Assembly (NCBI GenBank): GCA_023667045.1
Contig: JAMPAU010000003.1
Coordinates: forward strand, 141,192-205,191
Direction: 5' to 3'
DNA length: 64,000 nucleotides
Origin: Ruminococcus flavefaciens
GTDB lineage: Bacteria > Bacillota > Clostridia > Oscillospirales > Ruminococcaceae
The translations under genes were made by a program, and so were the position numbers. The notes under the pieces are model-generated. The model saw only the letters and a list, made by a program, of their open reading frames with translations, had not been told where the DNA came from and did not search any database. Of the stretch, positions 36,848 to 52,330 are shown piece by piece (the stretch's first letter is position 1; every line of letters begins with the position of its first letter).

Positions 36848-37165
36848 ATGTGGGGAATATATCTTGATATTTCATTACCGGAACTTTTTCAGCACGAAGT
36901 TGAATTTAAAAAAGATTCAGAAAACGCCATCATTCTGAATCCTGTGCATTATATAAAAGTACCCATGAATAAAATTAAACTGACAGAAAACGCTCCGGAT
37001 TTTGTTTACGGCGAGACTGTATCACCTGTAAGCCGTGCGGATATTACCGGAAAAATAAATACAATTATATGGCACTTTAAAAGAAACGAATTTTATTATT
37101 ATATTGAGGTGAACGGAAAGAAAAAATCCGTAAGATATTTCAGCAGTGACTTGAAACGTGTTTAA
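36848..37165 (+). CDS. Hypothetical 105-aa protein
   Basis: No signal or membrane span; mixed beta-rich sequence ending in KKKSVRYFSSDLKRV. GGAGGAG precedes the ATG by 8 bases and a consensus promoter lies 32 bases upstream, so it is very likely expressed. I recognise no family. It is the last host gene before the mobile element: its stop is 61 bases before the split tRNA. Confidence 0.72.
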   Translation: MWGIYLDISLPELFQHEVEFKKDSENAIILNPVHYIKVPMNKIKLTENAPDFVYGETVSPVSRADITGKINTIIWHFKRNEFYYYIEVNGKKKSVRYFSSDLKRV

Positions 37166-37187
37166 TATTTTAATTATATTAAAATCC

Positions 37188-37216
37188 TTGACAAATCATG
37201 ATTTCTGTGATATAAT
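37188..37216 (+). promoter_or_regulatory. Host promoter of the split tRNA-Thr
   Basis: TTGACA (37188-37193), 17-base spacer, TATAAT (37211-37216), ten bases before the tRNA 5' end. No terminator stands between it and the element's own tRNA-Thr, so it can drive both. Confidence 0.9.
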
Positions 37217-37225
37217 ATTATATAT

Positions 37226-37280
37226 GCTTGTGTAGCACAGTTGGTAGTGCATTTCACTCGTAATGAAAAGGTCGTGGGTT
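37226..37280 (+). pseudogene. 5' part of a host tRNA-Thr(CGU) interrupted by the mobile element
   Basis: Acceptor strand GCTTGTG, D-arm (GCAC/GTGC), anticodon arm TTTCA-CTCGTAA-TGAAA with anticodon CGT, variable loop and the 5' T-stem GTGGG are intact, then the sequence leaves tRNA homology right after GGTT. The missing 21 bases are found at 50580-50600. Joined, they make a 76-nt tRNA including CCA, with the acceptor stem fully paired and the T-stem paired with two wobbles. As it stands the gene cannot yield a working tRNA. Confidence 0.88.
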
Positions 37281-37347
37281 GTCAATAAAGCGACGTTCAC
37301 CCTACCAAGCCGGACACAGCAGTCTTACATCAAAATTAAATATCAAT

Positions 37348-37423
37348 GCTACTGTGGCTCAGCCGGTAGAGCAGCTCACTCGTAATGAGCAGGTCGCCCG
37401 TTCGAATCGGGTCAGTAGCTCCA
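37348..37423 (+). tRNA. tRNA-Thr(CGU), carried by the element
   Basis: 76 nt including CCA. Acceptor GCTACTG/CAGTAGC, D-arm with GGCTCAGCCGGTAGAGC, anticodon stem GCTCA/TGAGC around CTCGTAA (anticodon CGT, reads ACG), T-arm CCCG-TTCGAAT-CGGG. All arms pair. It lies 67 bases inside the left end of the element and has its own terminator. It has the same anticodon as the host gene the element breaks, but a different acceptor stem, so it is not a simple duplicate. Confidence 0.95.
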
Positions 37424-37426
37424 TAT

Positions 37427-37463
37427 AAAAACCGCTTAAAATAGACGTTTTAAGCGGTTTTTG
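37427..37463 (+). terminator. Terminator after the element tRNA-Thr
   Basis: AACCGCTTAAAA pairs with TTTTAAGCGGTT around a 6-base loop, followed by T-rich sequence. The next 200 bases before hsdM hold only its promoter. Confidence 0.9.
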
Positions 37464-37596
37464 TTGTCCCAAGTGTTATTGCGACCCCTTGCGTTGTATA
37501 AGGTGACGTTTCATTTTTATTTAAAATGTAGTGTATTTGTAAAAAGAGAAATTGAGAGATCACAGTGGAAAGCAAAGAAAAAAGACTGTTGAATGA

Positions 37597-37625
37597 TTGA
37601 CTAATTGTGCAAAATGTGGTATAAT
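37597..37625 (+). promoter_or_regulatory. Promoter of the type I R-M operon
   Basis: TTGACT (37597-37602), 17-base spacer, TATAAT (37620-37625), 43 bases before hsdM. Confidence 0.8.
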
Positions 37626-37668
37626 AAAGCTATGAATACCTTGATGAATGCGAGGTGGGAGGTCTTAA

Positions 37669-39204
37669 ATGATAACAGGTATCATTAAAAATAAAATAGA
37701 TAAAATATGGACGGATATATGGGCAGGCGGCATTACAAATCCGCTGACTGTTATTGAGCAGCTTACGTATCTGATGTTCATTCGTTCTCTCGATGAAAAA
37801 GAGCTTGAATTAGAGGAGTTTGCCAACCTGACAGGTGAAACTGCCGACCTTATTTTTCCTCAATCAGAGATAGGACAGGCTATGCGTTGGAGCAAATTCA
37901 AGAACAGGGATTCCCGTAAGATATTTGATCTCATCTCTCAGCGTGTATTCCCTGCTGTCAAGAAAATGAAATACGGAAAGCTGCCCGACTTTGACGAAAA
38001 AGGCGAACTTATAGAAATTCCCAATCGTGAGGACGGCGAACAGGTTCAGACAGCTTTCACTCGCTATATGGACAGTGCGGTATTTGTTATCCCTAATCCA
38101 CAGGTATTGCAGAAAATCATAACAGGACTTGACGATCTTTATGAACACGACATAGCTGATTTCGATATGCAGGGTGATCTGTACGAGTATATGCTCGGCA
38201 AGCTTTCTATGGCAGGTCAGAACGGACAGTTCCGCACACCTAAACATATTCGTGAGATGATGGTGGAGCTTGTTGCACCGACTCCCGATGACCAAATATG
38301 CGATCCTGCCTGCGGTACAGCCGGATTCTTGGTTTCGGCAGCGGAGTACATAAGAAGTCATTATGAAGATACAATGACTGAGGAACAATGGCATGATTTC
38401 AGTACCAAGACCTTTACAGGCTACGATACCGATCAGACTATGCTCCGTATCTCTGCTATGAACCTGATGCTCCATTCGATCACGAACCCCGATATTGACT
38501 ACAAGGACAGTGTTTCCAAGCAGAACAATGTAAGCGGAAAATATACGGTATGTCTTGCAAATCCGCCGTTCAAGGGTTCTGTTGACGCAGAGAGTATCAA
38601 CGATAATCTGAAAGCTGTCACCAACACGAAAAAGACGGAATTGCTATTCCTTGCACTGTTTCTTCGTCTGCTGCAAAAGGGCGGTAGATGCGCTTGTATC
38701 GTGCCTGACGGAGTGCTGTTCGGCTCGTCTAAGGCTCACAAGTCCATACGCAAGGAGCTTATTGAAAATCATCAGCTTAAAGCCGTTATTTCTATGCCCA
38801 GCGGTGTTTTCAAGCCTTATGCAGGCGTTTCCACGGCTGTGCTGGTGTTTGTCAAGACCGATGCAGGCGGTACGGATAATGTATGGTTCTATGATATGAA
38901 AGCGGACGGTTTCTCTCTTGATGATAAACGTTCGGAAATTGCCGACAACGATATTCCCGATATTATTTCCCGTTTCCATAATCCTAACGGTGAAAAGGAC
39001 AGAGAACGCACTGAGCAGAGCTTCTTTGTGCCGAAGCAGGAAATCGTCGACAATGATTACGACCTGTCAATTAACAAGTACAAAAAGACAGAGTATGTGG
39101 CTGTGGAGTATCCTCCTACAAGTGAGATCATGGCAGACCTTGACGGCTTATATAAGGAGCTGGGCAATGTGATTTCGGAGTTAGGGGGATTGTTGAATGA
39201 GTAA
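37669..39204 (+). CDS. hsdM: Type I restriction-modification DNA methyltransferase (HsdM)
   Basis: 511 aa, N6-adenine methyltransferase. N-terminal helical domain (residues 1-165), then FRTPKHIREMM, SAM-binding motif I CDPACGTAGF (211-220) and catalytic NPPF in CLANPPFKGS. Intact by all visible motifs. GGGAGG sits 7 bases before the ATG. Overlaps hsdS by eight bases. Together with HsdS it should methylate a bipartite site even though the restriction subunit is broken. Confidence 0.96.
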   Translation: MITGIIKNKIDKIWTDIWAGGITNPLTVIEQLTYLMFIRSLDEKELELEEFANLTGETADLIFPQSEIGQAMRWSKFKNRDSRKIFDLISQRVFPAVKKMKYGKLPDFDEKGELIEIPNREDGEQVQTAFTRYMDSAVFVIPNPQVLQKIITGLDDLYEHDIADFDMQGDLYEYMLGKLSMAGQNGQFRTPKHIREMMVELVAPTPDDQICDPACGTAGFLVSAAEYIRSHYEDTMTEEQWHDFSTKTFTGYDTDQTMLRISAMNLMLHSITNPDIDYKDSVSKQNNVSGKYTVCLANPPFKGSVDAESINDNLKAVTNTKKTELLFLALFLRLLQKGGRCACIVPDGVLFGSSKAHKSIRKELIENHQLKAVISMPSGVFKPYAGVSTAVLVFVKTDAGGTDNVWFYDMKADGFSLDDKRSEIADNDIPDIISRFHNPNGEKDRERTEQSFFVPKQEIVDNDYDLSINKYKKTEYVAVEYPPTSEIMADLDGLYKELGNVISELGGLLNE

Positions 39205-40321
39205 TACGGCATTTTTGGAAGATATATGTGAAATCCTTGACAGTCAGCGTGTTCCAGTAACTTCAAAAGACCGTACAAAAGGGATTTACCCATACTATGG
39301 AGCAAACGGTGTACAAGACTATATTGATGATTATATTTTTGATGATGAATTAGTATTACTTGCTGAGGACGGTGGCTATTTTGGCTCAAAAGAAAAGCCT
39401 ATTGCATATCGTGTATCTGGAAAATTTTGGGTAAATAATCATGCCCATGTTTTGAAAGCTAAAGATTGCATTGATATTGATTATTTATGTTATTCTCTTA
39501 TGTTCTATGATGTTAGCTCATTAGTTAATGGCGCTACAAGACAAAAGTTAAATCAAGCAGTAATGCGTAAAATGACAATTCCACTTCCAGAATTGGAACA
39601 GCAATATGAAATCGTTTCAAAGCTCGACAAAGTAACTCACACTATCGTCCTCTGCAATCAGATAATCGAAAAGTTGGATTTGTTTGTTAAAGCGAGGTTT
39701 GTGGAGATGTTTGGGGATATTTACACAAACAAATATAACTTTCCGATATGCCAGTTATCAGACTACATTTTTTTTTTGACCTCTGGTTCTCGTGGCTGGG
39801 CTAAATATTGTGTTGATGATGGTTCAGAATGGTTCATAACAATAAAGAATGTCAAAGATTGCAAAATCACAACGGATAATATTCAACCCGTAAATGCTCC
39901 TGACAATATGGAAGCTAAGCGAACAAAAGTAGAAGAAGGCGATCTTCTTATCAGTATAACTGCTGATTTAGGACGAACAGGTGTAGTAACACGAGAAATA
40001 GCAGAACACGGGTCATATATAAATCAACACCTTACTTGCGTTAGATTAGAGCAATCTAAACTTATGCCACTGTTTGTGGCATGCTTTATGGAAAGTGATT
40101 CGGGTAAAGCTCAGTTTGAAGCTAAAAATCAAACAGGTGTAAAAGCAGGATTGAACTTTGATTCCATAAAATCGTTGAAATTATTGATACCATCTCTTGA
40201 CTTACAAGAGCAATTCGTTGCCTTTGTAGAGCTGATTGACAAATCAAAATCAGCAGTTAAACAGGTGCTTGAAAAGGCTGAAACGCTTAAAAAGGCACTT
40301 ATGCAGGAATATTTTGGATAA
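39197..40321 (+). CDS. hsdS: Type I restriction specificity subunit (HsdS)
   Basis: 374 aa with two target-recognition domains (about 1-140 and 185-330), each followed by a conserved coiled segment (ELEQQYEIVSKLDKVTHTI and DLQEQFVAFVELIDKSK). The gene is clearly more AT-rich than hsdM, as expected of recombining specificity genes. Its sequence is unrelated in detail to the half-size HsdS in the atp operon. Complete by length. Confidence 0.93.
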   Translation: MSNTAFLEDICEILDSQRVPVTSKDRTKGIYPYYGANGVQDYIDDYIFDDELVLLAEDGGYFGSKEKPIAYRVSGKFWVNNHAHVLKAKDCIDIDYLCYSLMFYDVSSLVNGATRQKLNQAVMRKMTIPLPELEQQYEIVSKLDKVTHTIVLCNQIIEKLDLFVKARFVEMFGDIYTNKYNFPICQLSDYIFFLTSGSRGWAKYCVDDGSEWFITIKNVKDCKITTDNIQPVNAPDNMEAKRTKVEEGDLLISITADLGRTGVVTREIAEHGSYINQHLTCVRLEQSKLMPLFVACFMESDSGKAQFEAKNQTGVKAGLNFDSIKSLKLLIPSLDLQEQFVAFVELIDKSKSAVKQVLEKAETLKKALMQEYFG

Positions 40322-40336
40322 TAAAGGAGAAAAGTC

Positions 40337-40543
40337 ATGAATGGTTATACAATAAAGCCTTCAATTGAGCCGAATGATAAATATGAAAAAGCAAAACAGG
40401 ATGTTATTCAAGCGACTAAATCTGTGCAAGAATTAACACTTCAACAATGTCAAAAATTAGTACTAGAGTTGTTTGGATATGAAGCGGTAATGCAAATATG
40501 TAAATGTATGCAACAATGTAATGAGGATGAAAAACATGATTAA
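40337..40543 (+). CDS. Small hypothetical protein in the R-M operon
   Basis: 68 aa, AAAGGAG 8 bases before ATG. Helical, with several Gln and Cys near the end (MQICKCMQQCNEDEKHD). No family recognised. Its stop overlaps the likely start of the AlbA-type gene by eight bases, so the two are coupled; they may act as a pair. Confidence 0.7.
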   Translation: MNGYTIKPSIEPNDKYEKAKQDVIQATKSVQELTLQQCQKLVLELFGYEAVMQICKCMQQCNEDEKHD

Positions 40544-41354
40544 GTTGGGAAAAGATAAATTCTATGATAACTTTTTAAAAGAACCTACTAAGGATAATTT
40601 AAGAAAATTTTTGAAAGATGCATGTGGAGAATTAGATGAAGTAGATTTTAAAGCCGAATGGATTGAAAAAGGTCATTTGGCAAAGACAATGCTCGCTATG
40701 GCAAATTCTCATGGTGAAATTATTATTGTAGGTGTGAAAGAAGAAGAGGATGGAACAATCACTCCTATAGGTATTTCAGATTTTAAGGACAAAGCTGTTG
40801 TTAATAATGAAATATCTAAATATATCCCACCAGAGCTTGACTATGAAATTTTTGATTACAGTTATGATACATCAGAATATGAAGCTGTACAAAACAAAAA
40901 ATTTCAGTTGTTGATTGTACATGATACACCTGATAGATTGCCATTTATTTCAAGGAGTGCAACTACTAATCTTGAAAAAGATACGATTTATATAAGACGA
41001 GGAACTAAATGTGAAAAAGCCTCTGCTTCTGAAATTGAAAGACTATTAGAATATAAGATTGGCACAATTTTTAAAGAAACATCCAATTTATCTTTAGAAC
41101 AACACTTGCAACAACTGAAAATTCTGTATGCTGAGTTACCTAAAAAAGTGGAAGTTTTAGTACGAAAAGGCAAGTCAAATATGGCTGCACTTGGTATAGC
41201 AGCTACTCTACGAAGTCTTAACATATTTGGAGAACCAGACCAATATGAAGAAATTGATAATCCAGATTATCCAGAAGAGAGTTATGAGGCTTTTATTGGG
41301 CGAATGATCAAATCTAAAAAACTAAAAATTGAAAAATGCCTTGATTTAAAATAA
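40536..41354 (+). CDS. AlbA_2/Schlafen-type putative nucleic-acid-binding protein
   Basis: 272 aa from ATG at 40536 (MIKLGKDK), where GAGG lies 8 bases upstream; ATGs at 40521 and 40527 are worse placed. Residues about 30-160 match the AlbA_2 domain: acidic DFKAEW, then AKTMLAMANSHGEIIIVGV, and later DTIYIRRGTKCEKAS. Such proteins often sit inside type I R-M loci between S and R genes, as here, and some are linked to phage defence; the mechanism is not known. AT-rich like hsdS. Confidence 0.82.
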   Translation: MIKLGKDKFYDNFLKEPTKDNLRKFLKDACGELDEVDFKAEWIEKGHLAKTMLAMANSHGEIIIVGVKEEEDGTITPIGISDFKDKAVVNNEISKYIPPELDYEIFDYSYDTSEYEAVQNKKFQLLIVHDTPDRLPFISRSATTNLEKDTIYIRRGTKCEKASASEIERLLEYKIGTIFKETSNLSLEQHLQQLKILYAELPKKVEVLVRKGKSNMAALGIAATLRSLNIFGEPDQYEEIDNPDYPEESYEAFIGRMIKSKKLKIEKCLDLK

Positions 41355-41374
41355 TATGAAAGGAGAAAGTCTAT

Positions 41375-44202
41375 ACGGATAAAATAAAAGAACAAAAAGA
41401 CTGTAAAATTGATAATTCTTCATCAATTGACCTCTCTGAATTTAAGACAAGAAAAATCTATATTGACACTAAACTGAAACGCACGGGCTGGAAGTTCGGC
41501 GGTACTGATTCAGATGTATGGGAAGAATACGAAGTGAACGACATGAACGGCATTCTCGGTCAAAAAGGCTATGCCGACTATGTTCTGTTCGGTCGAGACG
41601 GACTTCCTCTTGCCGTTATTGAAGCAAAGACCCGAATATCGGCAGAAAACAGGCGGTTCTCTACGCCGATTGCTTAGAGCGTAAATTTGGGCGCAGACCG
41701 ATGATGTTTACTACCAACGGATTTGAAACATACTTCTGAGACGATCTGACCTCTCCGCAGAGAAAAGTAAGCGGCTTTTTCACGAAATCAGACCTTGAAA
41801 AACTGATGAACCGCAGAGAAACAAGAAAAAAGCTGAATACCGTAAGAATAAGCGATAAAATTACCGACAGGTATTATCAGAAAGAGGCTATCCGTGCAGT
41901 ATGCGACCATATTGAGCAGGGATTCCGCAAGGTTCTGCTTGTTATGGCGACAGGTACGGGCAAGACCAGAACAGCTTCAAGTCTGACAGATGTGCTGAGC
42001 CGCGGCGGATATGTTACAAATATTCTTTTTCTTGCGGACAGAACGGCACTTGTAAAACAAGCAGACGATTTCAAGAACTATCTGCCTGATATGTCGCTGT
42101 GTAATTTGTGCAGCAACAAGGACGACAGAAATGCCCGTATTGTCTTTTCGACCTATCCCACGATACTGAACGCAATAGACAGCACGAAAACAAAGGACGG
42201 TGTGCCGCTGTTTTCACCTGCTCATTTTGACCTTATCATCACAGATGAAAGTCATAGAAGTATTTTCAAAAAATATCGTGCGATCTTTGAGTATTTCGAT
42301 GCGATCATGGTAGGCTTGACCGCTACTCCGAAAACAGATGTTGACCGTAATACATACGATTTTTTTGAGGTCGAGAACGGCGTACCGACTTATGCTTACG
42401 ATTACGAAACAGCGGTATATATCGATCATGTTCTTGTGCCGTATTATAATTATGAGGTCAAAACAAAGTTCATTGAGGAGGGTATCACCTACGATGACCT
42501 GTCCGATGAGGATAAAGAGCGATATGAGGACGATTTTGCAGAGGACGACTATATTCCCGACTTTATCCCCTCGGCTCAGCTCAACAAATTTGTGTTCAAC
42601 GAAACTACTGTCGATACCGTCCTGCAAGACCTTATGGAGCGCGGTATCAAAGTCCATGGCGGTGACAGGCTCGGCAAGACAATAATTTTCGCACAAAATA
42701 AGGAACACGCTGAATTTATCGTACAGCGTTTCAATAAGCTCTATCCGAAATATAATGGCACATTCGCCCAGCGTATCACCTGTGATGACAGCTATGCACA
42801 GACTGTTATTGACGATTTCAAGATACCCGACAAAATGCCTGTTATAGCCGTTTCAGTGGATATGATGGACACGGGCGTTGATGTTCCCGAATGTGTAAAC
42901 CTTGTATTTTTCAAGAAAGTACGCTCCAAAACGAAATTCTGGCAGATGATAGGCAGAGGTACAAGACTTTGTAAAGACCTCGCCTTTATCGACGGTATAG
43001 ACGGAGAGTATGAGGGCAAGTGTCGTTTCCTAATATTCGATTACTGCGGTAATTTTGAGTATTTCAGGGAAAACCAGAACGGCTATGAAACGCTGGAAAC
43101 AAAGTCGCTTACCGAAAACATATTTTGTAAACAAGTGCGATTGATAGCTGCTTTGCAGGATAGTGCTTTCTCCGATGATGAACATCAAGCTTACCGCAAG
43201 GAGCTTGTTGATGTTTGCTATAACGGTGTAAATGAATTATCCCATGACCTTGTATCGGTTCGCCTGAAAACAGAATATGTTGAAAAATTCAGAAAAGCGG
43301 ATAGCTGGCAGGCTTTGTCTGATATAGACAGATATGAGCTTGAAAAGCACATCGCTGCGCTTATCACAACAATAGATACTGACGAATATGCAAAGCGTTT
43401 CGATAATTTTATGTACAGTATGATGCTGGCAAATATAGATAAGCTGCCGACCATGAATTATCTGAAAAAACAGCTTTGCCTTACTGTCGAATTGCTTGAA
43501 CGCAAGTCTACTATTCCGCAGATCAAGCAAAAACTCACTCTGATAAAGGATATTCAGACAGATACATTCTGGAAAAATATCAGCATTCTCACAATGGAGA
43601 AAGTACGGCAAGAGCTTCGTGACCTTATACAGTTCCTTGTGGACGGAGATGGATCAAAGCCTAAGATTTTCACAAGACTCGACGATCTGGTGCTTGAAAG
43701 TAAAGAGGGCGATGCATTGGGTGTTGCATATGACTTTGAGGACTATCGCAAAAAAGTCAACCGCTATGTTGAGGAACATAAGAACGACACTGTAATCTAT
43801 AAGCTGAATCATAATATTCCGCTTTTAAAAGAGGACTATGCAGAGCTTGAACGGATATTTACTCATGAGCTTGGTGACAGAGAGGACTATAAGCGTGAGT
43901 ATGGTGATACACCTTTCGGTCTGCTGATCCGTAAGATAGCAAAGCTCGATTACGAAAGTGCTATGGCTGCATTTTCGGAATTTATCAATGACAGTTCACT
44001 TAACCAAAAACAAATTGAATTTATCCTGAAAATCATCAATCATATTGAAAACAACGGCTATATCGAGGATATTAAGATTTTGATGAAACCGCCGTTTGAT
44101 AAGCCGTACAGCTTTATCAAGATGTTCGATGCAAAGACAAGAAATACGATATTAAAAACTATCGAAAGTATCAAGAACAACGCTCTGCAAGTGGTAGCAT
44201 AG
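41375..44202 (+). pseudogene. hsdR: Type I restriction enzyme subunit R, inactivated (frameshift, stop, lost start)
   Basis: The expected reading begins at 41375 with ACG instead of ATG, correctly spaced from GGAG. The nuclease domain reads [20 protein letters not shown] up to about 41628, then the frame shifts; the next frame continues [20 protein letters not shown] and meets TGA at 41737-41739 where the family has Trp (FETYF-stop-DDL). From ATG 41806 the helicase part is open for 798 aa: Walker A ATGTGKTRTA, DESHRS and IGRGTRLCKD. The motor is intact, but the nuclease cannot be made in one piece. The frameshift falls at AAAGAC, which may mark a repeat-mediated deletion. Confidence 0.9.
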
Positions 44203-44236
44203 ACAAGAACGGCTCGAATTAAAGGTCAAAGATATT

Positions 44237-44758
44237 ATGGATTACACATATCATTACACATCGCCTCTTGGCGGTATAACGCTTGCAAGTGACGGCAAAT
44301 CCCTGACAGGATTATGGTTTGATGGTCAGAAACATTTTGCCGATACCCTTAGTGCCGAAAACAGTGAAGTTAAGTTGCCGATATTTGAGCAGACTATTAG
44401 CTGGCTTGATATTTATTTCAGCGGCAACGCTCCCAATTTCACACCACCGTTGAAAATGCGGACAACGCCGTTTAGAAAAGCTGTGTGGGAAATTATGCTG
44501 ACGATACCATACGGAGAGACTATGACCTACGGCAAGATTGCAGACAGAATAGCAAAGCAGAAAGGGATTGAACGAATGTCAGCACAAGCTGTTGGAGGAG
44601 CTGTTGGACGCAACTCGATCTCGCTTATTATTCCTTGCCACAGAGTAATAGGTACAAACGGCAGTCTGATAGGTTATGCAGGAGGTATTGATAAAAAGAT
44701 CAAGCTTTTGACTTTGGAAAAAGCGGATTTGTCAAGATTGTTTGTTCCGAAGAACTGA
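44237..44758 (+). CDS. ogt: Methylated-DNA--protein-cysteine methyltransferase
   Basis: 173 aa. The acceptor Cys134 is in IIPCHRVIG, preceded by YGETMTYGKIA and VGGAVGRNSISL. Removes O6-alkyl groups from guanine by suicide transfer. It begins 34 bases after hsdR and may be in the same transcript. Such repair genes are common cargo of mobile elements. Confidence 0.95.
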   Translation: MDYTYHYTSPLGGITLASDGKSLTGLWFDGQKHFADTLSAENSEVKLPIFEQTISWLDIYFSGNAPNFTPPLKMRTTPFRKAVWEIMLTIPYGETMTYGKIADRIAKQKGIERMSAQAVGGAVGRNSISLIIPCHRVIGTNGSLIGYAGGIDKKIKLLTLEKADLSRLFVPKN

Positions 44759-44920
44759 ATATTGCCGTGATTTATTCATATGGCAAGGTGACTACGGCAG
44801 TTAATATAACTACAAAGAATGCTTGATGTACTTATAGGTGAAAATAAGAATTTGAAAGTCATTCCGTCAGATAATGTTTAAATGTATGAAATTATTTTTA
44901 ATATTGGATTGATACCACCA

Positions 44921-44933
44921 TGTCACAGTGACA
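44921..44933. repeat. TGTCAC-A-GTGACA palindrome upstream of the RepA-like gene
   Basis: Perfect 6-bp inverted repeat whose arm (GTCAC/GTGAC) recurs at least six times at the 3' end of the ATPase gene. Probably a binding site of an element protein. Confidence 0.5.
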
Positions 44934-45008
44934 CGGCTAAACTATACAACAGCTCCCTATGTCAACTAAAAAATATATATGCAAAATAGAAAAATGTTTT
45001 CAAAAGCC

Positions 45009-45099
45009 TTGACAAACGTTTAAAAATGACATACCATAGAATTGGGAGCATGGCAGAAATTGCCCGCAAAGATTTAAGAGTCTTTGCGGGCTTTTTGTT
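45009..45099 (+). promoter_or_regulatory. Promoter plus attenuator-like hairpin before the RepA-like gene
   Basis: TTGACA (45009-45014), 17-base spacer, TACCAT (45032-45037), then 25 bases later a strong hairpin CCCGCAAAGA/TCTTTGCGGG with a T run (45063-45096). A terminator this close to the promoter and before the gene suggests premature termination control or a very short RNA. The rest of the 386-base gap 44759-45144 holds only the palindrome. Confidence 0.6.
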
Positions 45100-45144
45100 T
45101 TGCAGAGATTTTTAATCTAAAATCAAGAAAGGTGGATTGATATA

Positions 45145-46194
45145 ATGGAAAGGTTGGATACCAGATCCTGCGAAGAAATCATGACAACTGTGTACAAGCC
45201 AATTGAATTTGTTGTTGACGGTTTGATTGCAAAGGGATTGTATATCCTTGCAGGAGCGCCGAAGGTCGGTAAATCGTGGCTGTCGCTTGATATCTGTCTG
45301 AGTATAGCAAAAGGAGAAAAGGTACTTGATCATGAAACGAAATGCGGAACGGCTTTGTATCTGTGCCTAGAGGACAGCTTTGAGCGAATACAGAAACGGT
45401 TGTATGAGCTGACAGACGAGCCGACTGAAAATCTGTACTTTGCTATCATGGCTGATACGATAGGCAGCGGTCTTGAAAATCAGATTGAGAAATTCAAAGC
45501 AAAGCATCCTGGTTTGAAAATCGTTGTGATCGATACCCTGCAAATGATTCGTGAATCAACTGAAAATAGTTATGGCTCGGACTATAAAGAGTTGTCTGTT
45601 TTGAAAGTTCTTGCGGACAAGCTGGAAATCGCAATCGTACTTGTGCATCACACACGAAAGTGTTCCGACAGCGATCCGTTCAATATGATTTCAGGTTCGA
45701 CAGGGTTAAGCGGTTGTGTTGATGGAAGTATGGTTCTTGTTGAAACCAAACGAGGCAGTCGAAAAGCAAAGCTGCACTGTGTCGGACGTGACATTGAAAA
45801 TGCTGAAATCAATTTGCTGTTCGACAGCGAGTTGAAAAAATGGAACGTCACTGACGAACCGACTGCTCCAAAAAACAAGGACAACATTTTTCTCTCTGCT
45901 GTTTATCTGTTCATCAAAGAGAAGATTCATTTCGAGGGTACGGCTACAGAACTTGTTGAGCAATTAAAATCAGTCACCGATGAAAAATTTTTTTCAAATA
46001 GAGTAACTCGTGATCTTGTTCAGAATGGTTATGAAATGAGAAAGTATGGAATTGATTTTAAACACAAGCGAACTCATTCGGGTAGAATAATATGTCTTGA
46101 TTATCGTGCGGAGCGTGACGGTAGTGACGGTAAAAACGGCAGCGTAGTTACTGTCACGAAACGGCTTGCCGAAGTGTCACAAACGTCTGTATAA
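45145..46194 (+). CDS. RepA-like AAA ATPase (RecA-fold helicase type)
   Basis: 349 aa. Walker A LAGAPKVGKSWLSL, Walker B IVVIDTLQMI, then VLVHHTRK and SGSTGLSGCVDGSMVL, the pattern of RSF1010 RepA-type replicative helicases found in clostridial plasmids and integrative elements. The last 100 residues form a winged-helix-like tail. AAAGGTGG before the ATG. It likely unwinds or initiates replication of the excised element. No primase or separate replication initiator is nearby. Confidence 0.85.
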   Translation: MERLDTRSCEEIMTTVYKPIEFVVDGLIAKGLYILAGAPKVGKSWLSLDICLSIAKGEKVLDHETKCGTALYLCLEDSFERIQKRLYELTDEPTENLYFAIMADTIGSGLENQIEKFKAKHPGLKIVVIDTLQMIRESTENSYGSDYKELSVLKVLADKLEIAIVLVHHTRKCSDSDPFNMISGSTGLSGCVDGSMVLVETKRGSRKAKLHCVGRDIENAEINLLFDSELKKWNVTDEPTAPKNKDNIFLSAVYLFIKEKIHFEGTATELVEQLKSVTDEKFFSNRVTRDLVQNGYEMRKYGIDFKHKRTHSGRIICLDYRAERDGSDGKNGSVVTVTKRLAEVSQTSV

Positions 46195-46267
46195 CGCTGA
46201 TTACAGTGCGTGTCAGTAGAAATAAGGAATTATTTTTTGCTGTCACGGTTTGTGGTTACTGTCACGC
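46115..46267. repeat. Cluster of GTCAC/GTGAC repeats, iteron-like
   Basis: GTGAC at 46115 and 46124; TGTCAC at 46152, 46175, 46241 and 46259, several within TACTGTCACG. The cluster begins in the 3' end of the ATPase gene and runs into the noncoding region, as expected of an origin next to a Rep gene. Spacing is irregular. Confidence 0.5.
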
Positions 46268-46486
46268 AAAAGCAAAGCGAATTCTGCCCGAATTTGCCCT
46301 CCAATTTTAAGTCGGGCAAGTTTTATCGGTAAAGCATCATGAAACGGCACACAAGCCAACGTGGAGCGTTTGTGGGCGAGAAATCAAAGTTTTGAAAAGG
46401 TGATAAAAAGTATCAATCTGACATATTGCACAAATTCATTTTTTGAGGGCATCTCAGGAACTCAGAGTAATGTATTGCAAGTTAAA

Positions 46487-46565
46487 GCATAGGGGTCGTA
46501 AGCCCCCTATGCGTTCACAGCGGACGGCAAAGCCGACCTCATATCGGAAAAAACTTTCTTTCCGA
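46487..46565. other. Hairpin-rich noncoding segment, candidate oriT or replication origin
   Basis: The 573-base gap 46195-46767 has no gene. It holds GCATAGGGG/CCCCTATGC (46487-46512), GGC-AAA-GCC near 46525, and TCGGAAA/TTTCCGA (46544-46565). Stacked hairpins in an element next to a RepA-like gene are typical of an origin or transfer site, but no relaxase gene is present to support oriT. Confidence 0.4.
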
Positions 46566-46767
46566 TTTAGGGGTTGTACGTTCACCTAACTGCGTAACTT
46601 CGGGGTTGCAAGTAGCTGTAAAGGCTAAAAACTGCCGAATTATCAGGAGTTGTTGGATGTATTTAACGAATTTTGCACAGTATCAACTGCAAAAATTTAT
46701 TGCCGTTGGTGAATAGACTTCCGCATAAAAGTGTGGTATCCTTGTAGGCTGGCAAGGAGGTGACCAC

Positions 46768-47049
46768 GTGAAAATATTTGAGAACTTTTACTATGGCAAT
46801 ATACGACCGTCCGAGCGATGTGTTCAAAAGGACAGCGAGTATGATCGGATGAGGAAGGAATGGCAAAAGCTTCATGAAGAGTTTACTGAGAATTTTTCTG
46901 AGGACAAGATGAAAAAATTCAATGAATTGATCGACCTTCAAGGTCATATGTCGGAGATCGTAGCTTCTGAGAATTATATGCAAGGCTTCCGTCATGGAGC
47001 AGAAATGATACTTGATGTGCTGTTCAGAGAAAGTAAAAACATCAAGTAA
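46768..47049 (+). CDS. DUF6809-like mobile-element protein
   Basis: 93 aa, GGAGGTG 10 bases before the ATG. Sequence opens MKIFENFYYGNIRPSER and continues with a charged helical body and YMQGFRHGAEMILDVLF. It resembles DUF6809 proteins that are frequent in clostridial mobile elements; function unknown. This is from memory of the family, not a search. Confidence 0.75.
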   Translation: MKIFENFYYGNIRPSERCVQKDSEYDRMRKEWQKLHEEFTENFSEDKMKKFNELIDLQGHMSEIVASENYMQGFRHGAEMILDVLFRESKNIK

Positions 47050-47127
47050 AACGACTATAGAAGATTACAGAGAGGGCGATTCGTCCTCTCTAAATCTCTT
47101 GAAATAAAATAACAGGAGGTATAGAAA

Positions 47128-47193
47128 ATGTATCAGATGAATAAAAACACAGGACGTAATGAGAGGAGCGTGATACCATTTTGGAGAATATAA
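47128..47193 (+). CDS. Very short ORF with strong ribosome site
   Basis: 21 codons (MYQMNKNTGRNERSVIPFWRI) with a perfect AGGAGG 7 bases upstream. It overlaps the start of the next gene, so it may act to couple translation to it rather than as a functional peptide. Confidence 0.4.
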   Translation: MYQMNKNTGRNERSVIPFWRI

Positions 47194-47507
47194 AAAACAT
47201 AAAAAAGAAAGACCCAAAGTCACTGGCGAAACCGTTGTGCATGGATAATTCTGAGATTCAGGCGGCGGAATACCACGACCATTATATTGACGGAGTGACC
47301 TACAGAGTGTGGTCTGCATTTGAAGGCAAGACAAAAGCAGAGAAAAGTCTCGGAGAGCTTATGATCCGCAGGCTCGAATCGGGCAAAGATGTGGAAGAAG
47401 TTGTTGACGAATATGAACTGGAGATACAGCGTATCAACGAGGAAACTTGTAAATTATTTGAAGATGATATTGATATGTCTAAAGAAATAATGCTGCTGGA
47501 TCTATAG
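47181..47507 (+). CDS. Hypothetical 108-aa mobile-element protein
   Basis: TTG start at 47181, overlapping the short ORF upstream; AGAGGAG is 12 bases away, so initiation probably depends on coupling. The protein is charged and helical (KAEKSLGELMIRRLESGKD is residues 54-72), without membrane spans. It lies 150 bases upstream of the recombinase. No family recognised. Confidence 0.65.
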   Translation: MENIKNIKKKDPKSLAKPLCMDNSEIQAAEYHDHYIDGVTYRVWSAFEGKTKAEKSLGELMIRRLESGKDVEEVVDEYELEIQRINEETCKLFEDDIDMSKEIMLLDL

Positions 47508-47656
47508 TCCGTATTTAACAAAAATCAAGAGTCCCATTTATTGATTCATACAAACTTTAGAACAGCAGCCGGATTATGCTGGAATTGCAGAGCCGAATGT
47601 GGTATAATTGGCTCGTAAGGCTAAGCGTGTCCGGCTGTTGAGAAAGGAGCAGAAAT

Positions 47657-49270
47657 ATGGATAAACAGCAGCATTACAGCGCAGCGCTCTATTGCAGACT
47701 TTCGGTTGACGACGGAAACTACGGCGGAAGCGTCAGCATCGAAACGCAAAAAATTATGCTTGAGCAGTACTGCAAGGATCACGCAATCAAAGATTACACT
47801 TATTATTGTGACGACGGTTTGTCTGGAACTAATTTCAACAGACCGTCATTTCAGCAGATGTATAACGACATCAACACTGGAAAAATCAACCTTGTTATCG
47901 TGAAGGACCTGTCCCGATTCGGAAGAAATTATATCGAAGTTGGAGCATATGTTGAGGAGTTCAAGGAAAGCGGAGTACGATTTATAGCCGCAGATGATAA
48001 CTATGATTCACTGGTAAACAGCGATGATCTGATGTTCCCAATGAAGAATGTTATCAACGAGCTGTATGCCCGTGACGTTTCTAAAAAGACCAAAGCCGCT
48101 AAGAAAGCAAAAGCCCGTGCAGGTCAGTATATCGGTTCAAAGCCGCCGTTCGGCTACAAGCTTGATCCGAATGACCGACATCACCTGATAGTTGACGAGC
48201 CTGCCGCAGAGGTTGTCCGCAGGATATTCAGGCTGGCGTCAGAAGGCGTAGGCTACAATAAAATGGCAAAAATATTCCGAGCAGAAAAAGTCCTTACCCC
48301 GATAGCATACTTCAATTTACACAATCCAGATTACTTCAAGTCAGACTACTGGCGAAAGGAATTCGACTGGCACGTTACATCTATCCGTGTGATTCTCAAC
48401 AACGAGGTCTACCTCGGAAAGCTTGTGTACGGTAAGCAGCGATGCAAATCTATGAAAAGCAAAAGCGTTGTGAAGAATCCGAGAGAGGACTGGATAATTG
48501 TTGACAACTGCCATGAGCCTGTTATCAGTCAAGAGCTGTGGGATACTGTGCAGAAGATACTTAATTCCAAGCACCGTCCTGCCAAAACAGGAGAGGTTCA
48601 AATGTTCGCAGGACTGCTCTACTGCGCGGACTGCGGTCATGCACTCACCTACTCACAGAAGAAACGCAGTGACGGAACGTATCACGGAGCATACTCATGT
48701 TGGATGTACAAAACTCACGGCAAGGAATACTGTGCCTCCCACTACATCACATACAATACGATATACACCCTTGTGCTGATAGACGTTCAGCGTATACTGT
48801 TTGAGTATCGCAGTAACGAAAAAGGCTTTAAGCGTTTCCTCGACCGCAAATATCAGTCGTCCACCGAACGTGAAGCCGCCGGACTTCAAAAGGAGTACGA
48901 GAAGAAACAAAAACGCTGCGGAGAACTCGACAAGATTATCAGCAAGCTCTACGAGGACAGCGTACTGGGCAAGATTAGCGAGAGCCGTTTTGAAAGCATG
49001 TCACTGGAATACGAAAAGGCACAGGAAGAAATCCGCAAGGCTCTGCCGGAGCTGAAAATAAGGATTGAACATCTGAAAGAGAAGTCCAATTCGGCGGACA
49101 AGTTCATAAATGTGATACGCAAGTACACGATAATTGATAAGCTGGACGCTGCGATCCTCAACGAGCTAATCGATAAGATAGTAGTTCACCACAAGGAGAA
49201 GTCCGAGGACGGCAGCACCTATCAGCAGATCGAAATATTTTATCGCTTTATCGGAAAGATTGATAATTGA
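47657..49270 (+). CDS. Large serine recombinase
   Basis: 537 aa. Resolvase domain with catalytic Ser16 (ALYCRLSVDD) and KDLSRFGRNYIEVG, recombinase domain (about 155-290), zinc-ribbon domain with CADCGH and CWMYKTHGKEYC, then a coiled-coil motif. This layout is that of Tn4451-type and phage integrases that cut at short cores; it is the obvious enzyme for insertion at the GGTT core of the tRNA. GAAAGGAG upstream of the ATG. It lies 1.3 kb from the right end of the element. Confidence 0.95.
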   Translation: MDKQQHYSAALYCRLSVDDGNYGGSVSIETQKIMLEQYCKDHAIKDYTYYCDDGLSGTNFNRPSFQQMYNDINTGKINLVIVKDLSRFGRNYIEVGAYVEEFKESGVRFIAADDNYDSLVNSDDLMFPMKNVINELYARDVSKKTKAAKKAKARAGQYIGSKPPFGYKLDPNDRHHLIVDEPAAEVVRRIFRLASEGVGYNKMAKIFRAEKVLTPIAYFNLHNPDYFKSDYWRKEFDWHVTSIRVILNNEVYLGKLVYGKQRCKSMKSKSVVKNPREDWIIVDNCHEPVISQELWDTVQKILNSKHRPAKTGEVQMFAGLLYCADCGHALTYSQKKRSDGTYHGAYSCWMYKTHGKEYCASHYITYNTIYTLVLIDVQRILFEYRSNEKGFKRFLDRKYQSSTEREAAGLQKEYEKKQKRCGELDKIISKLYEDSVLGKISESRFESMSLEYEKAQEEIRKALPELKIRIEHLKEKSNSADKFINVIRKYTIIDKLDAAILNELIDKIVVHHKEKSEDGSTYQQIEIFYRFIGKIDN

Positions 49271-49405
49271 ATCCGAATATGGTATAAGCGGCGAGCCGCC
49301 GCCTGCGAGTTCGCGCTGAAAATTTATTTATGGAAAATCATTTCTGCGCCTGTTGTAATTTCGCAGCTTTTATGTTATAATAATATCACGAAAGAAGGCG
49401 ATAAA

Positions 49406-50539
49406 ATGATCTATGAACTGAGACACTTCGATACAGCTCTCATGCAGTTTTCGGCTACCGAAGATACAAGCTCACCTGAGATAGAGATACTTTGGGTGAA
49501 TGAAGAAAAAAAGGCATTACTGCCTCTTGATATGAACGCTGACAGTGACAGTATATCACGCTGGCTGAGACACAGGACGATACCAAAAAACCGCGCCTAC
49601 GTTCACAGCTTTCTCAGCAAATGCGGACTCAATCTCAATCGCCCCATGAGCATTCTCAGCGTATCAAAGGGACTTTCCTTGAACGATTGCTACTGGGTGG
49701 TCGAGGAGGGGTTTGAGGGCAGCTTTGCGGAGTACAACTTGTACGACAACAGGTTCAGCAGAGTGCTTGGGCTTATCGCATTCACAGGCTATGGCAGCTC
49801 CGTGAGAACATCGCTTGCTTCATGTCCGGAGTTCACTACAAACGGTATGCTCCCGAAATGCTGGCGCAGAGAAAGCGGCAGTATAAAGCTATATAAAGGA
49901 GGTACGAGCGGAGCTTCCAACACGGGCAACGAGCCGTATTCGGAATTCTATGCCGCACAGATTGCGGAAATCCTCGGCATTAACGCTATCTGCTACGGAC
50001 TGTCGAAATGGCAGGGCGAGCTATGCTCCACCTGTGAGCTTTTCACAAGCAAGGACTATTCATTCATGCCCGTAGGCAGACTCGTCACAAAGGGTGGAAT
50101 GAAAGCCGTTCGGGAGTATTATGTATCGCTGGGCGAGGAATTCGTCAGCGCGCTTGATGATATGCTTGTGCTCGATGCGGTGATCTGCAACGTGGACAGA
50201 CACTTCGGCAACTTCGGATTCTTGGTGGATAACCGCACGAATAAAATAGCCGCTCCTGCGCCGCTTTTCGACCACGGAAACTCGCTGTTCAATCTTGCAG
50301 GCAGGGACGCTTTAAGCTCGGGAAATGCTCTCTATGAGTATGCGGAAACTCTTGTACTGTGTGTTTATGACGATTTTATCGGAATGGCAAAAAATGTCCT
50401 CTCCAACAGGCACAGAGAAGGTCTCTGCAGACTGCTCAACTTCCGATTCAAGCGTCATTCGAGATATAACCTTGATAAAAAGCGGATTGATCTGATCGAG
50501 AATCAAATACACAAACGAGCAAAGGAATTGCTCGGATAA
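49406..50539 (+). CDS. Orphan HipA-like kinase
   Basis: 377 aa. The C-terminal part has the HipA kinase motifs: Lys161 in SIKLYKGG, catalytic CNVDRHFGNFG (Asp264, Asn269) and metal-binding Asp289 in PLFDHGNSLF. The N-terminal 75 residues are short. HipA toxins phosphorylate targets such as aminoacyl-tRNA synthetases and are held in check by HipB; no HipB-like gene adjoins. It is the last gene before the right end, 37 bases from the tRNA remnant. It may help keep the element in place or act in defence; both are inference. Confidence 0.83.
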   Translation: MIYELRHFDTALMQFSATEDTSSPEIEILWVNEEKKALLPLDMNADSDSISRWLRHRTIPKNRAYVHSFLSKCGLNLNRPMSILSVSKGLSLNDCYWVVEEGFEGSFAEYNLYDNRFSRVLGLIAFTGYGSSVRTSLASCPEFTTNGMLPKCWRRESGSIKLYKGGTSGASNTGNEPYSEFYAAQIAEILGINAICYGLSKWQGELCSTCELFTSKDYSFMPVGRLVTKGGMKAVREYYVSLGEEFVSALDDMLVLDAVICNVDRHFGNFGFLVDNRTNKIAAPAPLFDHGNSLFNLAGRDALSSGNALYEYAETLVLCVYDDFIGMAKNVLSNRHREGLCRLLNFRFKRHSRYNLDKKRIDLIENQIHKRAKELLG

Positions 50540-50579
50540 CAATAAACGTCTCTTTAAATACAACTCATGGTCGCAGGTT

Positions 50580-50600
50580 CGAATCCCGTCACAAGCTCCA
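50580..50600 (+). pseudogene. 3' part of the interrupted host tRNA-Thr(CGU)
   Basis: T-loop and T-stem CGAATCCCGT, acceptor strand CACAAGC (exact complement of GCTTGTG at 37226) and TCCA. Preceded by the GGTT core at 50576-50579. Followed by a native tRNA terminator. No promoter or 5' part is adjacent, so it is a stranded fragment. Confidence 0.88.
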
Positions 50601-50605
50601 TAGAA

Positions 50606-50641
50606 AACCGTCTGAAATGCGTATTTCGGACGGTTTTTTTA
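50606..50641 (+). terminator. Native terminator of the interrupted tRNA-Thr
   Basis: CCGTCTGAAAT pairs with ATTTCGGACGG around a 4-base loop, followed by seven T. Confidence 0.9.
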
Positions 50642-50788
50642 TATATAATTGTCTGATTATAACAAATATCTCCGTACAGATTTGTGAAATGATACAAAAA
50701 ATATAAAAAGTTCGTCTTTTTTGTCTTCTGAAATCACTTATATACGAACATTTTAAAGTGTTTAAAAAAATTTTATGGAGGCAAAAAA

Positions 50789-52330
50789 ATGAAGAAAAAC
50801 ATTATAGTTGCGTGTATCTCGGCACTGACGCTTACGGCGGTATCGTGCAGTGAGGTGAAACAGACAGACATTCAGCAGGGAAGTTCTTCTGATATAAGTT
50901 CCAGCATATCAGAAAATACAGCTGACGGCTCTGCACCCGACAATGACGGCAAGGAAGACATATCAGAAAATACAGATGACAGCTCCGCACCTGTCAATGA
51001 AAACAAAGAAGACATAATCATCACAATGGCTGTGGGTTACAATAAGGAAAAAATAATTGAGGACGAAATATCAGCTTTTAATGAGGCAGATAACGGCTAT
51101 CAGATTGTCACAAAGAATTATTCTTCTGATTTTTATGATGAGACTATTGACAGCGTTGTTTTAACGGAAGAAGACGCTCTGACAATTGACTTCAATCTTG
51201 TACAGGATATTATGAATACAGATGATATTGATATTATTGATACAAGCGTATTCGGTAATGAATCTAAATATGAAATTCTGAAGAATATGGGAGCGTTTGC
51301 GGACTTATATCCCTTTATGGAAAACGACCCCGAAGTAAACACTACTACCTTAAATCAGCACATTCTCAGTCTTAATGAGACAGACGGTAAACTCTGTTCT
51401 CTGCCTATGTCATATATAGCGAATACCATGGTAGGCGAGACAAGATATGTCGGCAACAAGGAAAACTGGACTGTTGACGAGTTTATTTCAGCATGGGAAA
51501 ATATGCCGGAGGGTTCAACGGTAAACGGTTCTATAAACAGCGAGAATATCTATTATGATGTTCTTAGGTCAAACCTTGAATCATTCATAGACTATGAAAA
51601 TGCAGAAGTCAATTTTGACTGTGCGGAGTTCAGAAAAATCCTTGAATTTTGCAACCGTTTTGAGAGCAACAACAATCAGAAAAGTACATATGTATATGAC
51701 GCACCTAAAATGGTATCTTATCTTGACCTCAGCGGTATTAATGGAGCTAAATTATTCGGCGAAAACGGAAACGAAATATTACAGTTTACTAATCCGCCGT
51801 ACACAATGGTAGGCTATCCGTCAGCAGACGGACAGGGAGCTTTTTTCCAGTCCGGAGGAAGCTATTCAATCAGTGCAAAGTCTTCCCCCGAAAAACAGAA
51901 AGGTGCATGGGAGTTTATCCGGCAGTTTTACACAGAAGATTACCAGACAAATTGTGCAGTCGGTGAAAAAACAGTAAGTTACATTGACGACAAGGAATAT
52001 GTATATTATTCGTCTATGATGTCGGGATTCTGCATAAACAACAAAGCCTTTGATAATATCGCCCAGAGAACTATCGCCGGAGAGTTCGACAACGACACAT
52101 ATGTAATTGAGGGCGTTGAATACCCTAATCATTTTGTTACTCAAGAAGAAGTGGACAGGCTTGTGACATACCTTGACAGCATTGAAAGGTGGGAAACAAA
52201 CCTTGACTATGAACTCTGGAATATTGTTGAAGATGAAGTAATGGCATATTTTGCCGGTGAGCATTCCATTGATGATACTATTGATATGATTCAGAACCGT
52301 GCTTCTATATGGATTAGCGAACACTGCTGA
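50789..52330 (+). CDS. Extracellular solute-binding lipoprotein
   Basis: 513 aa. Signal peptide with lipobox LTAVSC (Cys20), a Ser/Asp/Glu-rich linker with a short internal repeat (ISENTADGSAP and ISENTDDSSAP), then a solute-binding fold of the family 1 type (IIITMAVGYNKEKIIEDEI; YTMVGYPSADGQGAFFQSGGSY near residue 335-355; KQKGAWEFIRQFYTEDY). Sugar ABC transporters use such proteins, but no permease or ATPase genes follow, so it may work with distant transporters or as a surface sensor. GGAGG 9 bases before the ATG. Confidence 0.85.
   Translation: MKKNIIVACISALTLTAVSCSEVKQTDIQQGSSSDISSSISENTADGSAPDNDGKEDISENTDDSSAPVNENKEDIIITMAVGYNKEKIIEDEISAFNEADNGYQIVTKNYSSDFYDETIDSVVLTEEDALTIDFNLVQDIMNTDDIDIIDTSVFGNESKYEILKNMGAFADLYPFMENDPEVNTTTLNQHILSLNETDGKLCSLPMSYIANTMVGETRYVGNKENWTVDEFISAWENMPEGSTVNGSINSENIYYDVLRSNLESFIDYENAEVNFDCAEFRKILEFCNRFESNNNQKSTYVYDAPKMVSYLDLSGINGAKLFGENGNEILQFTNPPYTMVGYPSADGQGAFFQSGGSYSISAKSSPEKQKGAWEFIRQFYTEDYQTNCAVGEKTVSYIDDKEYVYYSSMMSGFCINNKAFDNIAQRTIAGEFDNDTYVIEGVEYPNHFVTQEEVDRLVTYLDSIERWETNLDYELWNIVEDEVMAYFAGEHSIDDTIDMIQNRASIWISEHC

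Follow-up and report, generated by a model that had tools for sequence, protein, structure and literature searches.

Serine-integrase islands in Ruminococcus that split a host tRNA-Thr(CGU) gene and carry a candidate replacement tRNA

It is established that a disrupted tRNA gene can be replaced by the integrating element's own, and the known cases involve phages with tyrosine integrases. In the tRNA-dependent lysogeny of mycobacteriophages (Guerrero-Bustamante and Hatfull 2024, PMC10865867), short-core integration destroys the host tRNA gene and the element supplies the tRNA. The systems described there are temperate phages with tyrosine integrases, the Fionnbharth tRNA has its own demonstrated promoter, and the authors raise tandem integration as a speculation, with a second plasmid entering the tRNA of the first. 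In Sinorhizobium meliloti a host tRNA gene was substituted by one from prophage-related sequences, and the integrases are reported to be of the tyrosine type, one with mixed similarity, as against the serine type found here (PMC11476347). Streptococcal integrative and conjugative or mobilizable elements with serine integrases have very short shared cores and disrupt their target genes; those named in the excerpts are protein genes (rumA, mutT, traG, hsdM, maff2, snf2), with no mention there of tRNA replacement (PMC4701971, PMC5357655). Here we describe a 13.3-kb island in a 64,000-nt window of a Ruminococcus flavefaciens genome (G000:C46:141192-205191, G000 being the island's own genome; coordinates below are those of the window). 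It is probably a serine-integrase island targeting tRNA-Thr(CGU), which breaks the host gene, supplies a replacement and offers its own tRNA as the next target.

The Ruminococcus islands resemble the mycobacteriophage systems in that attB lies in a host tRNA gene, the core is short, the tRNA is rebuilt at neither junction, and the element brings a tRNA gene of the same isotype as the one disrupted (seen at 32 of 36 terminal junctions, defined below). They differ in having a large serine recombinase and not a tyrosine integrase, in a tRNA placed beside attP behind the host promoter, and in forming rows of tRNA halves. We set them apart from tRNA-dependent lysogeny because their integrase is not of the tyrosine type and they may not be phages; they appear to work in the same manner and may be regarded as a variant of tRNA-replacing integration. 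No serine-integrase case of tRNA replacement was found in the literature searched, in which subscription papers were thinly covered. What appears to be new is the serine integrase, islands without recognised phage genes, a host promoter that the cargo tRNA apparently uses, and the role of this tRNA as the next target. tRNA replacement at integration, known from tyrosine-integrase phages, would thereby extend to serine-integrase islands in gut bacteria, and the islands would give natural evidence for a second element inserting into the first one's tRNA, only speculated upon in the 2024 study.

Core to core, a stretch of 13,299 bases separates two halves of a tRNA-Thr(CGU) gene, and the sole tRNA that ARAGORN found in the window is a complete tRNA-Thr(CGU) inside the island's left end. 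The features of the two junctions are:
36848..37165, forward strand: left flanking host gene, 105 aa; orthologues adjoin an intact tRNA-Thr(CGU) in seven of nine other genomes having the gene
37188..37216, forward strand: host tRNA promoter, TTGACA-17-TATAAT; 12/12 consensus match
37226..37273, forward strand: 5' half of host tRNA-Thr(CGU), including core GGTC; from empty-site comparison
37270..37297, forward strand: attL, core GGTC and element arm ending ATAAAGCGACGT; attP symmetry 18/24, signature in 34/125 genus genomes
37348..37423, forward strand: cargo tRNA-Thr(CGU), intact; ARAGORN
37424..37465, forward strand: hairpin with T run 3' of the cargo tRNA; fold -20.4 kcal/mol, absent from the consensus-scan list
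50545..50572, forward strand: attR, left arm of attP and core GGTC
50569..50600, forward strand: 3' half of host tRNA-Thr(CGU), including core; from empty-site comparison
50600..50645, forward strand: native hairpin with T run; fold -20.6 kcal/mol
50789..52330, forward strand: right flanking host gene, 513 aa; in G122 the orthologue lies to the right of the intact tRNA

Among the 125 genus genomes, 10 (including the island's own) carry the left neighbour gene. One intact tRNA-Thr(CGU) follows it, within the stretch fetched, in the seven genomes noted above; none was found within that stretch in G013 and G005, whose left-neighbour matches are of lower identity. The congener G122 has an empty site with both flanks, its intact tRNA-Thr(CGU) standing between four upstream orthologues (64.7-93.2% identity) and one downstream (65.5%), and the other four genomes compared for flanks match on the upstream side only. 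Judged by comparison with this empty site, integration has broken the host tRNA gene. An earlier note on this DNA had proposed such a split and had suggested looking for an uninterrupted locus in related genomes, which G122 and six more intact genes now provide. When the window's flanks are joined at GGTC, ARAGORN returns a 76-nt tRNA-Thr(CGU), and the left half with its own downstream sequence returns none; on paper, excision would restore the host gene, as had been anticipated.

ARAGORN also accepts a join at GGTT as a 76-nt tRNA-Thr(CGU), so folding alone cannot place the crossover, and its placement rests on the empty sites and on attP symmetry. Intact native genes read AGGTCGCAGGTTCGA; GTGGGTT after the left GGTC is therefore element DNA, and the crossover lies at GGTC, the shared core in the variable loop at 37270-37273 and 50569-50572. 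The earlier note had put the break in the T-loop, with GGTT as the core and the T-stem GTGGG credited to the host, and must be corrected on all three counts. The candidate crossover at GGTT with a host GTGGG was ruled out, since seven intact neighbour genes read GCAGG.

The recombinase is a large serine integrase of 537 aa, with Resolvase, Recombinase, zinc ribbon and DUF4368 domains. S16, which we take to be the catalytic serine, is invariant in 12 integrase sequences. The attP rebuilt from the two element ends has inverted arms around GGTC that agree at 18 of 24 positions (shuffle mean 6.9; 0 of 2000 shuffles as high). Arm symmetry about GGTC recurs in 9 of 13 reconstructed elements (scores 12-18, at most 0.35% of shuffles as high), the last attL being paired, by assumption, with the first attR in rows of halves. 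The domains, the invariant S16 and the inverted attP arms about a very short core (in nine of the 13 elements and not in four) are those expected of large serine integrases. An annotated TndX shares 38.0% identity over 98% of the protein, but the island's integrase falls in a different clade from TndX-type recombinases and its target is a tRNA gene. A tRNA-directed clade of serine integrases can be named, possibly of use as a site-specific tool.

Scanning genome contigs for the integrase gave 41 loci, including Ruminococcus bicirculans 80/3 and several R. flavefaciens strains. A tRNA 3' half starts 29 to 1313 bases beyond the integrase in all 33 loci whose match reaches the C-terminal end, although these are not all independent because some share a strain; the remaining eight loci have incomplete or distant matches. 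In L180, which is among the 33, the 3' half belongs to a tRNA-Met, presumably of the initiator type, and its T arm and acceptor strand are identical to those of an intact tRNA-Met in the same genome. Integrase matches in phage and plasmid collections (652 and 498 records, respectively) are all below 60% identity.

The left junction recurs across the genus. There are 56 occurrences of the attL pattern AGGTC-N11-ATAAAGCGAC, spread over 34 of the 125 genus genomes, against three for the reversed control, which rules out an accident of one strain. The signature was absent from all 292 sampled family genomes outside the genus; the whole family sample comprised 297 genomes, five of them from the genus, and the island's own genome was the sole match. 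We examined 42 loci with the signature or a slightly looser form (L291 and L292 being taken from a search for tRNA-Met fragments), and six of these run off the contig too soon, leaving 36 usable terminal junctions. A tRNA-Thr(CGU) lies within 450 bases after the last attL in 32 of the 36. Where a 5' half was recognised to the left, this held in 25 of 25 cases, and in 7 of 11 where none was recognised (Fisher p=0.0056); counting three more, insert-bearing halves, the figures become 28 of 28 and 4 of 8 (p=0.0012).

In the window, the cargo tRNA begins 74 bases past the core (not 67, as previously counted) and runs in the same direction as the host gene. The host promoter is a perfect match with an extended -10, 9 bases upstream of the 5' half, and a consensus scan found no promoter between the 5' half and the cargo tRNA. 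The cargo tRNA lies behind the host promoter and would be transcribed from there; the ARAGORN call and the promoter match bear out the claim that the element supplies a tRNA of the same anticodon downstream of that promoter. Terminators had been proposed for the cargo tRNA and for the host 3' half. Folding upholds both as strong hairpins, each with a T run behind it, but none was listed by the consensus scan of 37100-37520.

Pairing is maintained in the terminal tRNAs. Across 17 distinct sequences, pairing holds in 98.6% of 357 cells and two-sided changes affect 12 of 21 pairs, with 0 of 500 shuffles reaching either value and the signal being lost when partners are slid. Because the 17 include host-type genes (GCTTGTG/CACAAGC) lying behind scars, the selection signal applies to the terminal tRNA generally and not just to cargo copies. 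These data bear on the idea that the main reason for keeping the cargo tRNA is to renew the attachment site, with loss of the host tRNA being tolerated. Such tolerance would be eased by the tRNA-Thr(UGU) of the island's own genome, which we assume may read ACG by wobble, and ACG accounts for 98 of 785 Thr codons in the 32 window open reading frames (ORFs) of at least 250 codons. The compensated two-sided changes, however, reach the acceptor stem and the outer T stem, whose pairing would not be required in an attachment site centred on the variable loop. We give this explanation perhaps a one-in-four hearing, and a cargo tRNA that functions as a replacement remains our preferred reading.

The proposed sequence of events is as follows. 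The integrase would recombine attP with an attB comprising three parts of tRNA-Thr(CGU), namely the anticodon arm, the variable loop and the T arm, and the crossover would fall at GGTC. The host gene would be broken and the island's tRNA-Thr(CGU) left 74 bases past the break, in the same direction and behind the host promoter, where it would replace the lost host tRNA. As the same target lies within the cargo tRNA, another island can then enter it and bring a further tRNA. After each event the left side would hold a 5' half with an attP arm (attL) and the right side a 3' half (attR), and excision between an inner attL and an outer attR would probably remove the bodies, leaving a row of attL scars and one intact, sometimes hybrid, tRNA.

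Rows of this kind are present in several genomes. Four 5' halves precede one intact tRNA in G018 and three do so in G066, and G023 has six attL signatures up to the contig end. In both G066 and G063, a pair of related integrases and a pair of attR sites follow one another. Downstream of the first attR of G063, a stretch of 266-312 bases matches the sequence immediately following attL-linked intact tRNAs, at 92.6-94% identity in G126 (L137) and G143/G160 (L224) and at 88% in G128 (L138), so that one island lies inside a tRNA that stands intact behind an attL elsewhere. In the wider comparison 23 of 34 attR flanks match terminal-tRNA flanks, a count confounded by short terminator similarity, and only the long matches were relied upon. 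By our reading, the innermost 5' half forms a paired acceptor stem with the first attR in 9 of the 11 elements having a recognised half (the window, G066, G063, G071, G073, G061b, FD-1, R. bicirculans and G158_C16); GCTTGTG/CACAAGC is common, so part of this agreement could be chance, and the telling pairings are those of R. bicirculans (GCTGATA/TATCAGC) and G158_C16 (GCTGGTG/CACCAGC). In G008, G126, G031, G072 and G101 the stretch examined holds scars but no related integrase, which would fit loss of the bodies by excision between inner attL and outer attR.

The rows might instead have arisen by tandem duplication of one attL unit, through slippage or unequal crossing-over, with no serial integration. 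The units are very alike and 105-109 bases long, as duplication would have it, but adjacent units can differ in both element arm and acceptor sequence, unlike a simple duplication, and G063 and G066 hold two islands in a row; we consider this origin unlikely. Rows of halves with differing arms that end in one intact tRNA evidently reflect islands inserting into a resident island's tRNA, which would account for the clusters of tRNA halves in Ruminococcus genomes. On balance we lean towards a self-renewing attachment system that uses the host promoter. As the target is re-created in every copy, the locus would never fill up; as each arrival adds a scar, the rows of 5' halves would form an ordered, perhaps readable, record of past integrations, and host tRNA-Thr(CGU) genes would be progressively overwritten by element-derived ones.

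Several observations weigh against the replacement and serial-integration readings. Four terminal sites lack an intact cargo tRNA; two of these are in tRNA-Met fragments of a single genome, where a cargo tRNA has decayed to remnants, and one failing site, L292, is also near a contig end. L110, counted among the 32, is a hybrid tRNA with an unpaired acceptor stem. Four of the 13 reconstructed elements (G018, G007, G073 and G061b, with AGTC at attR) score 6-9 in the attP test, not above shuffles, and two of the 11 (G018 and G007) show no pairing between the innermost 5' half and the first attR. Among terminal tRNAs, further pair types are no more numerous than in shuffles (210 of 500 as high). 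At least one other intact tRNA-Thr(CGU) is present in the island's own assembly, on contig C25, together with the tRNA-Thr(UGU), and the ACG usage given above belongs here too. Finally, several of the genomes are metagenome bins, with contigs breaking in repeats.

Some of these loci merit description in their own right. The hybrid at L110:1388-1460 joins a 5' half GCTTGTG to a 3' half TTTCCAGC after an attL arm, as mispaired excision would give. At L291, L292 and L268:10020-10080 (genome G155), the family's islands lie in displaced 3' fragments of tRNA-Met and their cargo tRNAs are decayed. The further tRNA-Thr(CGU) noted above in the island's own genome adjoins a tyrosine integrase on a 20-kb contig with polymerase and helicase-loader genes (L074:13932-15329).

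The body of the island contains the following genes:
37669..39204, forward strand: HsdM
39197..40321, forward strand: HsdS
40521..41354, forward strand: Schlafen/AlbA_2 protein
41806..44202, forward strand: type I restriction enzyme subunit (HsdR-like)
44237..44758, forward strand: O6-methylguanine methyltransferase
45145..46194, forward strand: AAA_25 ATPase, presumably RepA-like
46768..47049, forward strand: DUF6809 protein
47657..49270, forward strand: large serine integrase (Resolvase, Recombinase, zinc ribbon, DUF4368)
49406..50539, forward strand: weakly HipA-like protein (HipA_C E 0.0011, below cut-off; PDC-M03A)

HsdM, HsdS and the HsdR-like subunit make up a type I restriction-modification system. 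No phage structural families were recognised among the ORFs scanned, and no relaxase or conjugation module among those scanned in three elements, each scan covering only part of the ORFs. The defence genes that the islands carry raise the thought that the cargo tRNA serves something else, such as resistance to a tRNA-cleaving defence, its position being incidental. Against this, the cargo anticodon is always that of the target, and the cargo tRNA always lies 58-79 bases past the attL core in single-step junctions and is always oriented with the host promoter, which makes such a role very improbable.

Three further patterns were seen at related loci. The terminal tRNAs at L138:326-401, L218 and L230:453-526 have a very different body with the locally usual acceptor stem, which hints at acquisition from another lineage. 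In many Ruminococcus genomes, R. bicirculans among them, dead tRNA-Thr 5' halves share a conserved insert of about 107 bases between T33 and C34 (copies at L078:3534-3700, L228:1348-1500, L240-L246, L248 and L249); an intact T arm never follows in the copies listed, and an Rfam scan of six loci with the insert gave tRNA matches only. Lastly, a second kind of row, with 69-70-base units and the next tRNA about 22 bases after the core, occurs at L120, L131 and G034:C1:2330013-2330237, which suggests another element lineage at the same tRNA.

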